From a virus, in IMG/VR virus record IMGVR_UViG_3300032116_018335, positions 1 through 40,813 of that record: a DNA stretch of 40,813 bases. One strand, 5' to 3'. The position numbers and the translations under genes were made by a program. Below the pieces are notes generated by a model. It made no database searches. It was given only the letters and a program-made list of their open reading frames with translations, and was not told where the DNA came from. This document shows, piece after piece, positions 4,904 to 10,198 of this stretch. Positions within the stretch are counted from its first letter, which is position 1. Each line of letters begins with the position of its first letter.

Positions 4904-4940
4904 AAAATAAAAAACCCCACTCCGAAAAGGAATGAGGTTT
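4904..4940 (-). terminator. rho-independent terminator of the tmRNA gene
   Basis: On the - strand AAACCTCATTCC pairs with GGAGTGGGGTTT (12 bp with two G-U) around a 5-base loop, then a T-rich run. It starts 4 bases after the tmRNA 3' CCA. Confidence 0.85.
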
Positions 4941-4944
4941 CAAA

Positions 4945-5315
4945 TGGTGGAGATGCGGGGTGCCGCCCCCCGGTCTTGCTCACTTTGGTAATTAAGGACT
5001 ACGTAAATAGGTCAACATTAGTTCTTAATGTTCCGAAATATTGATTTTCTTACTCAGCAAACCACAAACGAGTTTTGTTTCTTTTAGGATAGAAACCACA
5101 CCCTACCAGTACTTCTGTTCCGAGGTTATGTGTACGCCGACCCGAAGTAGTTTCGCCTTAGGCTACCGCTACAGTTTCAGAAGTGCGAACAAGTCCTACT
5201 GCTGAAAGTTTGTTGATAACGTTTCCGTCTAATTGTTAAGTCAGTTTTACAAGGTTAACTCAGCCTCGTTACGCCCTTAATTAGCAACCGTGCCAATCGA
5301 TGCTATGTCATCCCC
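4945..5315 (-). ncRNA. ssrA: phage-encoded tmRNA (transfer-messenger RNA)
   Basis: A complete 371-nt tmRNA. The 5' GGGGATG pairs with 3' CATCTCC, followed by ACCA, giving a 7-bp acceptor stem with the G3-U wobble that alanyl-tRNA synthetase reads. The long helix P2 is present (TAATTAAGG with CCTTAATTA, plus TTGC/GCAA). Pseudoknot PK1 is present (CGAGG/CCTTG with GTTAA/TTAAC). Resume signal TAGAC (E. coli has TAGUC) is followed by GGA-AAC. The tag frame ends in TAA within a hairpin loop, as usual. CCA is encoded. A host-type promoter lies upstream and a terminator downstream. Odd points are a 22-residue tag ending VAVA and a T-loop GGCGGCA instead of TTCRANN. tmRNA rescues stalled ribosomes with SmpB; no smpB is seen in this window, so host SmpB is likely used. 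Confidence 0.95.
5158..5226 (-). other. tag-peptide reading frame of the tmRNA
   Basis: From the resume codon GGA (5226-5224) to TAA (5160-5158) there are 22 codons. The peptide begins GNVINKLSAV, continues GLVR and ends TSETVAVA. Including the charged alanine that precedes the resume codon, the added tail is 23 residues. Most bacterial tags are about 8-15 residues and end in ALAA or a close variant read by ClpX and ClpA. Confidence 0.85.
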
Positions 5316-5342
5316 ATTATGTTAAAGAACTTCTTTCTTCTA

Positions 5343-5372
5343 CAAATATACGAACCTTTTTGGAAAAACCAA
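5343..5372 (-). promoter_or_regulatory. host-type promoter of the tmRNA
   Basis: On the - strand TTG (5372-5370), 19 bases, then TATATTTG (5350-5343). The expected start leaves a leader of about 20 bases before mature position 5315, to be removed by RNase P. Confidence 0.75.
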
Positions 5373-5402: not shown

Positions 5403-6737
5403 ATGACAAGTGAAGACCTCGATGAAGGAAGGGACGTGATTATTGAAAACGATAATTACCTTTTTATGGAAATATTAAATGCTGAAACTGCAAGATACTA
5501 CGGTAAAGAAGATATCGCAAACACTTGGGGAAGAAAATTTAGAGAGGGTCATTTATATTATTTGATTGATAAAAAATTCAGGGGAGACTCAATTTGGATT
5601 CATATTCCTCATATGAGTTCTATAGAAATAGAAACCTTTTATGAGGAAGTTCTTACTTTATCCGACCTTTTAAGAAAACACTCATTTATTGAAAAATTCA
5701 TTATGGATAAGGTCAATCCATTTGATATGAGCACTTATTATGCTTTAAAAGCGATTGCTCAAGGGGTTCCACCTTTAAGTGATTGGACGATGCAAAATGT
5801 CGATGACCTTATTAGTAATTTCAAATATATTAAAGGAAATCCAAGAAATTCTATTGTGACATTAAGATTTGATAATGATGAAGAATATTTTAAAACATTT
5901 GAAGTTAGTGATGATACCGTTTGGTTTTTGAACCAAATTTTCAACTCTTATGGAGGTGGATTTGATTTTGTTGATACCTCTGACAATTACCAATGGACTG
6001 ACGGTTACATTCTTACTTATAATTTGAATGACGAAAATAAAGAAAAAATTAATGAAATATTAAAAGTATTAAAACCTGGTACTACTCTAACAGATAATGA
6101 CCACGATAATGCAGAGTTAACTAAAATACTTGATAATTTCTATCCTGAAATTGGTGATGATTTGTCTACTGAGTATGCTAATTTAGAAAATCAGGCAAGA
6201 AACGAAAAAGCAAAAGAAGAAGTTACTGAAGAACTTTGTAATATATATGAAAAATTTAATATATTCGTAAGAAGAGGATGTTTTTGGGAATATACAACTC
6301 CTGTTTGGAATTTAATTAGATTATACGAATCAAGAGAATTATTTAATACAGATTTATTGGGACTAATCTCTGCGATAGGACATAGTTTAGATGTAACTGA
6401 TTGGTATGAATATATGTATGAAATATATGGTGATAATTTTGATGACGAACAATTTAATAGAGATGCCGCAAGAACCTTGGATAGGGTCTTAGAGAAGTTA
6501 GAGGAACAAAATTTAGATAAAGTAAAAAAGGTATATAATGAAATTTCTAAAAAATTCAAGTTTGAAGTATGGTATGATTTTCCAATTGACCCAAATAAAA
6601 CTTTTTATTTAAGAAAAGTAGATTTGGAAACAGGAAAATTGGATGTCAATTTAAGAGGTAAAGGTATTAATAGTTACCGAACTTTAATGGAACTAGAGGA
6701 TTTTTATAACCTAATTTATAATTATTCTTTGTTTTAA
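5403..6737 (+). CDS. uncharacterised phage protein, 444 residues
   Basis: Not assigned to a family. It is acidic, probably mostly helical, without signal peptide or membrane segment, so cytoplasmic or virion-internal. Near the N terminus the stretch LNAETARYYGKEDIANTW followed by GRKFREGHLYYLIDKK resembles in layout a small domain common in T4-like phages, in which a 'KWCT' core is followed by an aromatic, glycine and an LYxxID strand; here the cysteine is absent. The middle contains repeated D/E/N-rich loops, and the C terminus a strand-rich segment (FEVWYDFPIDPNKTFYLRKVD). The gene stands alone between the tmRNA promoter region and the peptidase, preceded by a late-promoter motif. Function unknown. 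Confidence 0.8.
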   Translation: MTSEDLDEGRDVIIENDNYLFMEILNAETARYYGKEDIANTWGRKFREGHLYYLIDKKFRGDSIWIHIPHMSSIEIETFYEEVLTLSDLLRKHSFIEKFIMDKVNPFDMSTYYALKAIAQGVPPLSDWTMQNVDDLISNFKYIKGNPRNSIVTLRFDNDEEYFKTFEVSDDTVWFLNQIFNSYGGGFDFVDTSDNYQWTDGYILTYNLNDENKEKINEILKVLKPGTTLTDNDHDNAELTKILDNFYPEIGDDLSTEYANLENQARNEKAKEEVTEELCNIYEKFNIFVRRGCFWEYTTPVWNLIRLYESRELFNTDLLGLISAIGHSLDVTDWYEYMYEIYGDNFDDEQFNRDAARTLDRVLEKLEEQNLDKVKKVYNEISKKFKFEVWYDFPIDPNKTFYLRKVDLETGKLDVNLRGKGINSYRTLMELEDFYNLIYNYSLF

Positions 6738-6773: not shown

Positions 6774-7607
6774 ATGGAAAGAAATTATCAATTACTGAAG
6801 GACGTTTTGTCCGTACCATCTAAAACTTACAATGAAGAATTGATGGTTGAATTTATCTCAAATTGGCTTACCGAAAATAACATCGACCACGAAGTTGATG
6901 AATATATGAATGTATATGCCACAAAAACAACGGGTCCTGTTCCTGATAATTTTTATTTCCCCTGTGTTGTATCTCACACCGATACGGTTCACAATATTGA
7001 TACTATAAATGTTGTGGAAGAGCAAAAGAAAAATGCTCAAGGTGAAATGAAACTTTCATTAAAGGCTTACAATGATTTAGGTAATCCTACGGGAATTGGT
7101 GGTGACGATAAGTGTGGTATTTATGCTTGTTTGGAATTATTAAAAGAGTTACCGTTTCTAAAAGCATCATTTTTTGTATCCGAAGAAACAGGATGTCACG
7201 GTTCTCGTAAAGCGGACAGGTCTTTTTTCTCTGATATAGGATACGCAATTCAGTTTGACGCCCCTGAGAATTGGATGGTTACTGAAAGATGTTGGGGTAC
7301 GACCTTGTTTGACCGTAGGTCTGATTTTTTCAAACACTGTGATAATGTGTTGACTGAATCTTTTCCTGATAAATTGCAATATTTTTCACATCCATACACT
7401 GACGTTTACGCTCTGAAAGAATCATTTGACTTTTCTTGTATAAACATTTCAATCGGGTATTATGATTACCATACCAAAAACGAATATGTTGTTGTAGAAG
7501 ATGTTTATAACGGAATTGATGTAGGAAAGAAAATGATTGAAAAATTAGGTTATTCCAAATACAGATTCAAAATGGAAAAACCTGATAAATTTTATTCGGT
7601 TTTATAA
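6774..7607 (+). CDS. zinc-dependent M20-type peptidase (single catalytic domain)
   Basis: A 277-residue metallopeptidase. The di-zinc motif set is visible: HTDTV (His68, Asp70), GIGGDDKCG (bridging Asp111/112), SEETG (general base Glu137, ligand Glu138), a later acidic ligand in FDAPEN (Asp162) and a C-terminal histidine in YHTKNEYV (His233). This order is typical of M20 exopeptidases such as peptidase T. It is much shorter than the usual ~400 residues, with the dimerisation domain missing or reduced. It has no signal peptide and so acts in the cytoplasm, probably on short peptides or a modified amino acid. A consensus host promoter suggests expression early in infection. The gene ends at a terminator shared with the converging clp gene. 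Confidence 0.85.
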   Translation: MERNYQLLKDVLSVPSKTYNEELMVEFISNWLTENNIDHEVDEYMNVYATKTTGPVPDNFYFPCVVSHTDTVHNIDTINVVEEQKKNAQGEMKLSLKAYNDLGNPTGIGGDDKCGIYACLELLKELPFLKASFFVSEETGCHGSRKADRSFFSDIGYAIQFDAPENWMVTERCWGTTLFDRRSDFFKHCDNVLTESFPDKLQYFSHPYTDVYALKESFDFSCINISIGYYDYHTKNEYVVVEDVYNGIDVGKKMIEKLGYSKYRFKMEKPDKFYSVL

Positions 7608-7636
7608 AAAAAGGAGGTCAATCGACCTCCTTTTTT
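7606..7636. terminator. bidirectional terminator between the peptidase and clp genes
   Basis: GGAGGTC-AATC-GACCTCC with A-run before and T-run after, so it can work on both strands. The last clp codons lie inside the hairpin. Confidence 0.8.
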
Positions 7637-9657
7637 GTTTTACCCTTCTTTGGTTTCTTATCCTCTGTAATTTTTATTTTTTCCTCCTCAACCGATATAG
7701 TATAATTGTGGTCTGTGAGTAATTCACCTCTGAGAACTTCTTCTGAAATGTAATCTTCAATTTTATCTTGAATTGCTCTCTTCAAAGGACGGGCACCATA
7801 CATTTCATCAAATCCAACTTTAGAAATCATATCAACAATTGATTCGTCAAATTTAAAATTGTATTTAATTTTAGTTAACCTATCTGTCAACTTAATAAGT
7901 TCAATTTTAACAATCTCTTTTACGTGTTCTTCTTTCAAAGTATTAAATACAATGATATCATCAATACGATTCAAGAACTCAGGTGCAAAAAATTTCTGAA
8001 GTTCTTTTTTCAGAGTATCTCGTTTTTGTTCCTCAACGATGTAATCTTTTTTCTGAAAACCGATACCCGAACCAAATTCTTGGATTTTTTTAACACCAAG
8101 ATTTGATGTCATAATAATCAAACAATTTTTGAAGTTAATTTTACGACCCAAACTATCGGTCAAGTGCCCATCATCCAATACTTGAAGTAATGTTGAGAAT
8201 ACATCTTTATTTGCTTTTTCAATTTCGTCAAATAAAACAACTGAATATGGTTTATTTTTAACTTGTTCAGTGAGTTGTCCTCCCTCATCATAACCCACAT
8301 ATCCTGGAGGTGCTCCAATCAAACGAGACACGGTATGTTTTTCTTGATATTCAGACATATCAATCCTGATTAGTGAATCCTCACTACCAAAAATTTCTTT
8401 TGCCAATTGTTTTGCTAAGTGTGTTTTACCAACGCCTGTTGAACCCAAGAAAATAAACGAACCAATTGGTCTATTTGGGTCCTTGATACCCAATCTATTT
8501 CTACGAATTGCTTTTGAGATTTTACTTACCGCTTCTGATTGACCGATAACTTTTGATTCCAACATTGACTCCAAATTAATAAGAGATTTTGTGTCATCAA
8601 CATTTAATTTACCCACAGGGATTTTGGTCATATTTGAAACAACCTCATAGACAAGTTCGATTTGAACATCTTTTTTGTTGATGTTCATTTCTTCTTCAAA
8701 TCGTTGTTTTTCTGCATGTAATCTATTTAGAACCTTTTTTTCTTTATCTCGTAATTCCGCCGCTTGTTCATAGTTTTGTCTTTTAACAACATCTATCTTC
8801 ATTTGTTTTATATCAGAAGCCTCCTGTTTTAACTTCTCAATCGACTCTGGCATTTTAACATCTACCTGACTTCTTGCTCCTACTTCATCTATAATGTCAA
8901 AAGCCTTATCAGGAAACTCTCTATCTGTAATATATCTGTCTGCCAAATCAACACAAGTAATTAATACTTCATCCGAGAAAATTACTTTGTGATAATCTTC
9001 ATATTTTGATTTGGAGTTTCTTAAAATTTGTAAAGTTTCATCTTTTGTTGCTGGGTCAACAATTACTTTTTGAAATCTTCGTTCAAGTGCTCCGTCCTTT
9101 TCAAAGTTCTTACGATACTCATCTAATGTTGTTGCTCCAATACACTGAATTTCTCCTCTTGCAAGTGCGGGTTTGAATATGTTTGAAGCGTCCAAAGAGC
9201 CTGAAGAATTTCCTGCTCCTACGATTGTATGGATTTCATCAATAAAGACAATAATGTTTGGATGAGATTGTAATTCCTCGATTATCACTTTCATTCTTTC
9301 TTCGAACTGGCCACGATACTTGGTTCCCGCAACAATGGATGTCATATCAAGTAAAACAATTCTTTTATCAACCAAATTTCTTGGACATTCACCTTGTTGG
9401 ATTTTCATCGCCAATCCTTCAACAATTGCGGTTTTACCACAACCTGGCTCACCAATAATAATTGGGTTATTTTTCTTTCTTCTTGATAGAATTTGAGCAA
9501 TTCTCAAAATCTCTTTATCTCTTCCAATTACAGGGTCCAATTTGCCTTCTTCGGCATACTTAATTAAATCCTTTGAGAAGTTATCTAATACAGGTGTTCC
9601 TGTTTCACTTTCTATTTTCTTTTTGTGTGATGGTCCATCATCCATTATCTCGTTCAT
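7618..9657 (-). CDS. ClpC-like AAA+ unfoldase lacking the N domain
   Basis: A 679-residue Clp/Hsp100 ATPase with two AAA+ modules. D1 has Walker A GEPGCGKT (69-76) and Walker B FIDE (Asp140, Glu141). D2 has Walker A GSTGVGKT (405-412), Walker B LFDE (Asp477, Glu478) and the pore segment GAPPGYVGYDEGG. A UVR-like segment (QNYEQAAELRDKEKK, about residues 295-309) marks the short ClpC/ClpE middle domain. A GIGF sequence (531-534) matches the IGF/VGF loop that docks ClpC to ClpP, so the phage enzyme may feed a host ClpP. The N-terminal Clp_N substrate and adaptor domain is missing: only about 20 residues precede the linker before D1. It is divergent from hsp20 and shares its control region. Confidence 0.95.
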   Translation of the reverse strand: MNEIMDDGPSHKKKIESETGTPVLDNFSKDLIKYAEEGKLDPVIGRDKEILRIAQILSRRKKNNPIIIGEPGCGKTAIVEGLAMKIQQGECPRNLVDKRIVLLDMTSIVAGTKYRGQFEERMKVIIEELQSHPNIIVFIDEIHTIVGAGNSSGSLDASNIFKPALARGEIQCIGATTLDEYRKNFEKDGALERRFQKVIVDPATKDETLQILRNSKSKYEDYHKVIFSDEVLITCVDLADRYITDREFPDKAFDIIDEVGARSQVDVKMPESIEKLKQEASDIKQMKIDVVKRQNYEQAAELRDKEKKVLNRLHAEKQRFEEEMNINKKDVQIELVYEVVSNMTKIPVGKLNVDDTKSLINLESMLESKVIGQSEAVSKISKAIRRNRLGIKDPNRPIGSFIFLGSTGVGKTHLAKQLAKEIFGSEDSLIRIDMSEYQEKHTVSRLIGAPPGYVGYDEGGQLTEQVKNKPYSVVLFDEIEKANKDVFSTLLQVLDDGHLTDSLGRKINFKNCLIIMTSNLGVKKIQEFGSGIGFQKKDYIVEEQKRDTLKKELQKFFAPEFLNRIDDIIVFNTLKEEHVKEIVKIELIKLTDRLTKIKYNFKFDESIVDMISKVGFDEMYGARPLKRAIQDKIEDYISEEVLRGELLTDHNYTISVEEEKIKITEDKKPKKGKTKKEVD

Positions 9658-9817: not shown

Positions 9818-10198
9818 ATGTTTAACACAATTTCTTTATTCAGTCCAACATTTGATGATTTAACAAAGGACTTTTTTGAATCAACTAGGAAGAATTATTA
9901 TTCGACCGATTATGAAACCCACAAAACTGAGGATGGTATGTACTATTTATTTGATGTACCAGGTTTTAACAAATCAAATCTAAAAGTTGAGGTTGAAGGT
10001 TCAAAACTTTTGATTGATGGTAAAAGAATTTATAAAACATCAAATGGTGAAAGAACAAAGACATTCCAAAAAACTTACGAGTTGGGAAATAAAATTGACA
10101 TCTCAAAACTTGAGGCAACAATCGAGGATGGTATTTTGACAATCTTCATTCCTACTCCAAGTGAAAAGGAAACAAAGAAAAAAATCTCTCTTCTTTAA
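9818..10198 (+). CDS. Hsp20 small heat-shock protein
   Basis: A 126-residue alpha-crystallin-type chaperone that holds unfolding proteins without ATP. The central domain (about residues 30-118) shows the family pattern: YYLFDVPGFNKSNLKVEVEGSKLLIDGKR, then an F-x-K-x-Y-E-L strand, DISKLEATIEDGILTIFIP (the A-x-x-x-DGxLxIxxP signature) and a short tail with two I-x-L-type residues (KKISLL) for oligomer contacts. Length is normal for a bacterial Hsp20. It has its own upstream sigma54-like promoter and is followed by a strong terminator, so it is a single-gene unit. Divergent pairing with a Clp ATPase suggests joint protein quality control during infection. Confidence 0.95.
   Translation: MFNTISLFSPTFDDLTKDFFESTRKNYYSTDYETHKTEDGMYYLFDVPGFNKSNLKVEVEGSKLLIDGKRIYKTSNGERTKTFQKTYELGNKIDISKLEATIEDGILTIFIPTPSEKETKKKISLL

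Follow-up and report, generated by a model that had tools for sequence, protein, structure and literature searches.

The tmRNA gene carried by an uncultured phage raises the question of why its tag should be 22 residues long and end in VAVA, and whether a protease of the phage, of the host or of both would read it. The window considered here, which is the whole stretch of DNA that was analysed (40,813 nt, the basis of all numbering), is a 40.8-kb IMG/VR record and represents a fragment.

The tmRNA gene and its tRNA-like domain

The gene and its predicted expression signals occupy the following positions:
4945–5315, minus strand: one-piece tmRNA gene (ssrA), RF00023, 77.8 bits, E 1.1e-28
4947–4945, minus strand: encoded CCA, read from the sequence
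5227–5231, minus strand: TAGAC, directly 5' of the resume codon, read from the sequence
5158–5160, minus strand: tag stop codon TAA within a predicted P5-like hairpin, from frame and fold checks
5343–5372, minus strand: putative promoter of Bacteroidota type, TTG-N19-TATATTTG, upstream of the tmRNA, read from the sequence
5321–5330, minus strand: boxA-like GTTCTTTAAC in the tmRNA 5' leader, recurring in relatives
4909–4939, minus strand: predicted intrinsic terminator directly beyond CCA, AACCTCATTCC-TTTTC-GGAGTGGGGTT-TTTT

An earlier note, made by eye, had placed the hallmarks of a tmRNA at 4945–5315, and the coordinates proved exact, with the gene on the minus strand and G3-U70, CCA, PK1, TAGAC and the stop codon in a hairpin all seen. 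The search that it had proposed with the Rfam tmRNA covariance model gave a full-length match (model positions 1–374 of 374) well above the gathering score of 47. The acceptor stem, as read from the sequence, is a perfect helix of 7 bp that includes G3-U70, a pair present in 174 of the 175 distinct tmRNA sequences of the family. Among relatives, both stems of PK1 covary by compensatory changes, with 91% and 89% of the cells paired, and helix P2 is predicted from the Rfam alignment. The position of TAGAC is taken in relatives by TAAAC, TACAC, CAACT or CAAAT, and the predicted hairpin around the tag stop reads GCC-UAA-GGC.

The TTG-N19-TATATTTG arrangement is the promoter type of Bacteroidota, and TAnnTTTG was found upstream of 47 of 59 tmRNAs. 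Hairpins comparable to the window terminator come after the tmRNA in most relatives. Directly before the tmRNA, the window and its relatives share a leader element, GTTCTTTRA, which resembles the rRNA boxA antitermination signal.

When ARAGORN was run on the window, the tmRNA was not called, probably owing to a T-loop that reads GGCGGCA in place of UUCRA. This program, the tool of earlier surveys, misses or miscalls many phage tmRNAs. Five others (L028, L037, L050, L054 and L065) are called by it as tmRNAs, but with a tag that is truncated or read in the wrong frame, such as AEEATVVA. The T-loop of the window departs from the usual, but not defining, UUCRANY, and it is accompanied by a second change in the D-loop:
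4956–4972, minus strand: T-arm, with loop GGCGGCA at 4967–4961 and a perfect, G+C-rich stem of 5 bp, read from the sequence
5303–5304, minus strand: D-loop dinucleotide A-G, where others have G-G (equivalent to positions 18–19), from sequence comparison

Both changes had escaped the earlier note. The loop class GGC[AG]G occurs with varied T-stems in six distinct tmRNAs (the window, L003, L203, L228, L174 and L211), and the A-G D-loop was found in all six of these but in none of the 169 others (Fisher p 3e-11, relatedness ignored). The six do not form a single tag group but come from several, and canonical loops also occur in sequences that share a tag with them. The pairing of T-loop and D-loop is an apparent tertiary covariation of the elbow. 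Five other tmRNAs share the T-loop class together with the matching D-loop change, which suggests a rebuilt rather than a lost elbow in the tRNA-like domain. A GGC[AG]G T-loop would abolish the usual T54/Psi55 modification sites.

Further variation was observed in this domain among the relatives. Compared with L128, L180, L191 and L205, L203 shares the tag and almost all of the middle but differs at the 5' and 3' ends, and the tRNA-like domain seems, from this comparison, to have been exchanged as a unit. A further group of tmRNAs (L101, L125, L161 and others, 12 distinct sequences) has an 8-nt T-loop, AGTCGGAG, with the normal G-G D-loop. In two phage tmRNAs of related records (L133:1849-2076 and L036:10641-10865), the T-loop is split by group I introns (RF00028, 98 and 95 bits), and a 2025 database paper reports such T-loop introns in tmRNAs (PMC11915505). 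It is a matter of speculation that the altered T-loop might exclude them.

The tag family and its conservation

The tag frame begins immediately after TAGAC:
5161–5226, minus strand: tag frame GNVINKLSAVGLVRTSETVAVA, with GGA at 5226–5224 as resume codon, from translation, frame check and same-family relatives

It comprises 22 codons, ends in TSETVAVA and is followed by TAA, while the two other frames after TAGAC reach a stop after 9 and 15 codons. An LAA, ALA or AAA end was sought in all frames of the window tmRNA and none was found. Translation therefore bears out the earlier description of a 22-residue tag ending in VAVA rather than ALAA, and no other frame gave the ALAA-type tag that the earlier note had named as the contrary outcome. 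The tag had also been described as about twice the usual length, which agrees with the commonest tmRNA tag length of 10 residues given in the 2025 database paper (PMC11915505).

All 59 tmRNAs examined (that of the window and 58 from related virus records, detected by a covariance model that is blind to the tag) encode one tag family of 21–22 residues with the pattern G-N-x-[LIF]-x-K-[LM]-x3-G-L-x-R...V-x-V-A. Among 86 distinct tags, a set that comes in part from pattern scans and is biased to fixed positions, G11 and L12 are invariant, K6 and G1 are each retained in 85, the final alanine in 82 and R/K14 in 81; the 59 pattern-free tmRNAs share this core. Conservation within the tag is stronger in its central part (G1-N2..K6-[LM]7...G11-L12..R14) than at its C-terminal end. 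The earlier note was correct that the end is not LAA, but it looked too exclusively at the final residues. In 82 of the 86 tags the terminal alanine is preceded by small or hydrophobic residues. Degrons read by Clp ATPases have an alanine end after small or hydrophobic residues.

Codon usage within the frame points to the peptide as the object of selection. The in-frame tag has a mean pS of 0.62 against a pN of 0.28, a pattern that shifted frames lack, and Leu, Arg and Gly codons swap freely among members with the residues unchanged. In G128, a 261-kb relative whose ClpC is 88% identical, the tag equals that of the window with six synonymous and no non-synonymous differences. Because the peptide is identical despite these six changes, the comparison indicates that selection on the tag is working at the peptide level.

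Scans of viral contigs with two codon-level tag patterns returned at least 120 stretches each and at least 237 loci with complete tags of 21–22 codons; two further matches reach contig ends. On the evidence of these contigs, the tag family is common to hundreds of related uncultured phages. The L-type codon pattern gave no tag locus among 84,980 bacterial and archaeal species, although it fixes some codons and host tags with a different codon choice may escape it. Two L-type matches in that scan were dismissed, as their frames lack a stop at tag length and they have no tmRNA ends. Against 50,697 phage records, blastn with the window tmRNA matched its 3' 31 bases alone and tblastn with two tags gave no match, so that no isolate carrying the tag was identified among them. 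A tag profile compared with the proteins of the collected loci and with the PDB found no other protein, and hence no natural carrier of the degron, in either set. The lysozyme gene, used as bait for relatives, gave one weak locus.

ClpC and the surrounding genes

The genes beyond the tmRNA include a AAA+ unfoldase and the following neighbours:
7618–9657, minus strand: ClpC-like AAA+ unfoldase of 679 aa, without N domain, with GIGF ClpP-docking loop, from Pfam and PDB matches
6774–7607, plus strand: M20/PepT-like peptidase, between ClpC and the tmRNA, with a homologue in 77 of 80 ClpC loci
5403–6737, plus strand: conserved protein of no family, adjoining the tmRNA on the opposite strand, with homologues in 69 of 80 loci
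9818–10198, plus strand: Hsp20 small heat-shock protein, from a family match

The unfoldase has two AAA+ modules with Walker motifs GEPGCGKT and GSTGVGKT and pore loops KYRG and GYVG. Its alignment to S. aureus ClpC begins at residue 155 of the latter, so that the adaptor-binding N domain is missing, and it is called ClpC-like because this domain of the ClpC subfamily is absent. The ClpP loop [IV]GF (LGF or MGF in two) is present in every relative ClpC whose loop was read.

With the homologue at 7618–9657 as query, 80 viral loci were collected, and a full tmRNA over the cut-off was found in 58 of 81 whole records tested. Each of the 58 tmRNA records reached by way of ClpC has the two genes on one strand, with the tmRNA 1.9–4.8 kb downstream of ClpC; in the window the distance is 2.3 kb. 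ClpC is also encoded, usually in one copy, in 48 of 50 records picked by the tag alone and was not seen in the other two. No full tmRNA was seen in G078, a ClpC record of 111 kb. All of these phages belong to one lineage, however, so that common descent, with no functional link, could account for the synteny.

The tag-found records encode a phage ClpP in 17 of 50 cases and SmpB in 3 of 50, and G128 encodes all four of SmpB, ClpP, ClpC and tmRNA. The SmpB gene is absent from the window fragment. Most records, many of them fragments, are without ClpP and SmpB genes, as are G036 and G073 (about 290–304 kb); most of the phages would therefore borrow SmpB and ClpP from the host. The nearest huge-phage ClpC records, LR745206 and LR756502, contain SmpB and ClpP and no tmRNA over the cut-off. 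An association of phage ClpP with T as the third tag residue looked perfect in a first set, but in a larger one it fell to 16 of 27 versus 8 of 60, confounded by descent, and was rejected.

The protein at 5403–6737 yielded a confident AlphaFold2 model (pLDDT 93) and weak viral matches alone. A fold search with this model, directed at an adaptor role, returned no informative match, and no adaptor was identified. A 290-aa protein at 1330–2202 contains a DnaJ-type CXXCXGXG zinc segment that falls below the Pfam cut-off; with Hsp20 and ClpC it marks what is, by its predicted gene content, a proteostasis-rich region. In four relatives, though not in the window, a GOLLD RNA (RF02032, >300 bits) was detected on the strand opposite to the tmRNA, about 0.8–6.3 kb beyond it:
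L003:17985-18384, L011:17076-17487, L402:16474-16875 and L036:11887-12296, minus strand: GOLLD RNA, RF02032

The top-ranked match of the terminase is a Flavobacterium phage, and the peptidase has Cellulophaga phages among its best matches in isolates. Together with the promoter type, these matches make a Bacteroidota host likely, though not certain, and the window derives from a lineage of large tailed phages whose hosts are probably Bacteroidota.

Proposed function, alternatives and known systems

The reading favoured here, to which a probability of about 0.58 is assigned, is that the tag is a phage-dedicated degron, appended by the phage tmRNA, for phage ClpC acting with host or phage ClpP. 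The tmRNA would be transcribed from the host-type promoter, charged with alanine via G3-U70 and, with SmpB from the host (or from the phage in some relatives), would free ribosomes that have stalled on broken messages, appending the phage-specific tag of 21–22 residues instead of a short host tag. The N-domain-less ClpC would then read this tag as a degron and hand its substrates via the [IV]GF loop to ClpP, that of the host in most records and that of the phage in others, and the M20/PepT-like peptidase may complete peptide breakdown. The fixed length and the conserved front part suggest that docking involves more than a bare hydrophobic C-terminus, with G-N-x-[LIF]-x-K-[LM]-x3-G-L-x-R as the putative specific docking element and V-x-V-A as the likely pore-entry end.

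Among the fates proposed in the earlier note, redirection to a different protease would fit the near-constant phage ClpC with its ClpP loop and the ClpP of some relatives. Slower decay is not favoured, given the Clp-type alanine end of most tags, and the tag may mark rescued proteins for use by the phage. A bolder version, held with somewhat less than even confidence, is that a virus-only tmRNA degron and a virus-only ClpC form an orthogonal disposal channel, in which rescued phage products would escape recognition by the host's tag-reading machinery and the quality control of the phage would be separated from that of the host, with an elbow rebuilt in the lineage of the window (GGCRG T-loop, A-G D-loop).

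It is also conceivable, although unlikely, that the tmRNA chiefly rescues ribosomes and that the tag is an ordinary degron for host ClpXP or ClpAP, its length being incidental. Host Clp ATPases may accept the prevalent alanine ends, and phage ClpP is absent from most records. An incidental length should drift, however, so that the fixed 21–22 residues count against this explanation, as do the stronger conservation of N-terminal and middle residues than of the end and the absence of the tag motif from the bacterial and archaeal genomes scanned. Less probable still is a stabilising or sorting signal: rescued proteins would be kept out of reach of host ClpXP or delivered to a phage compartment or an aggregate, and ClpC and Hsp20 would serve as chaperones. 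The lack of an LAA end, a conserved core that could form a short helix-turn-helix, and the Hsp20 and DnaJ-like genes close by would suit such a signal, but ClpC, unlike a pure disaggregase, retains the ClpP-docking loop, and a peptidase gene lies within the same cluster.

The two remaining explanations concern the RNA itself. A decayed or inactive window tmRNA with a broken T-loop consensus would account for GGCGGCA in place of UUCRANY and for the missing ARAGORN call. Such decay is very improbable. The acceptor stem and the T stem are both perfect, 6 contigs whose T-stems differ share the loop class and in each case the matching D-loop change, selection acts on the tag, and promoter and terminator are intact. 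Conservation of the tag through RNA-level constraint (pseudoknots or protein binding to the tmRNA) is disfavoured and scarcely credible: PK1 and P5 do flank the tag region, whose 3' end is paired around the stop, but many of the changes are synonymous and few are not, with Leu, Arg and Gly codons exchanged and the residues kept.

The window gene resembles the bacterial one-piece tmRNA (RF00023) in its whole-model match, G3-U70, PK1, resume codon after TAGAC and hairpin stop. The phage family is distinguished by the conserved 21–22-residue tag ending in VAVA, VTVA or VVxA, and the window additionally by its GGCGGCA T-loop and A-G D-loop. In the literature, phage tmRNAs are described from mycobacteriophages Bxz1, Wildcat and others and from Bacillus phage G (PMC4131195), tmRNA and SmpB from huge phages (PMC7162821), and the tmRNA of Wildcat as its most expressed lytic gene (PMC7474061). 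These earlier tmRNAs are likewise phage-borne, some with SmpB. The tmRNA of the Methylophilales phage Melnitz (PMC9004378) is two-piece and similar to the SAR11 host tmRNA, unlike the one-piece gene of the window, and the same paper offers suggestions alone as to why phages carry tmRNA. No account of this tag family or of its tie to phage ClpC was found in the passages of open literature that were covered.

With S. aureus ClpC (6em8) and B. subtilis ClpC/MecB, the phage protein shares two AAA+ domains, the M domain and the ClpP loop, but it is without the adaptor-binding N domain. The closest functional precedent appears to be Mesoplasma florum, whose 27-residue ssrA tag is read by its own Lon (PMC9097571); there, too, the tag is long, has a non-LAA end and is served by a dedicated protease. 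The Mesoplasma system differs in being cellular, in using Lon rather than ClpC, in the unrelated sequence of its tag and in having been tested by experiment, whereas the phage system is known from sequence. Phage tmRNA and SmpB themselves were already known, and the principal finding here is the family of tags together with its link to ClpC. A tag of fixed length and sequence in hundreds of phages and a phage ClpC capable of docking ClpP form a testable pair. If the proposed reading is true, the pair would constitute a viral degron–protease system from which an orthogonal degradation tag could be obtained.
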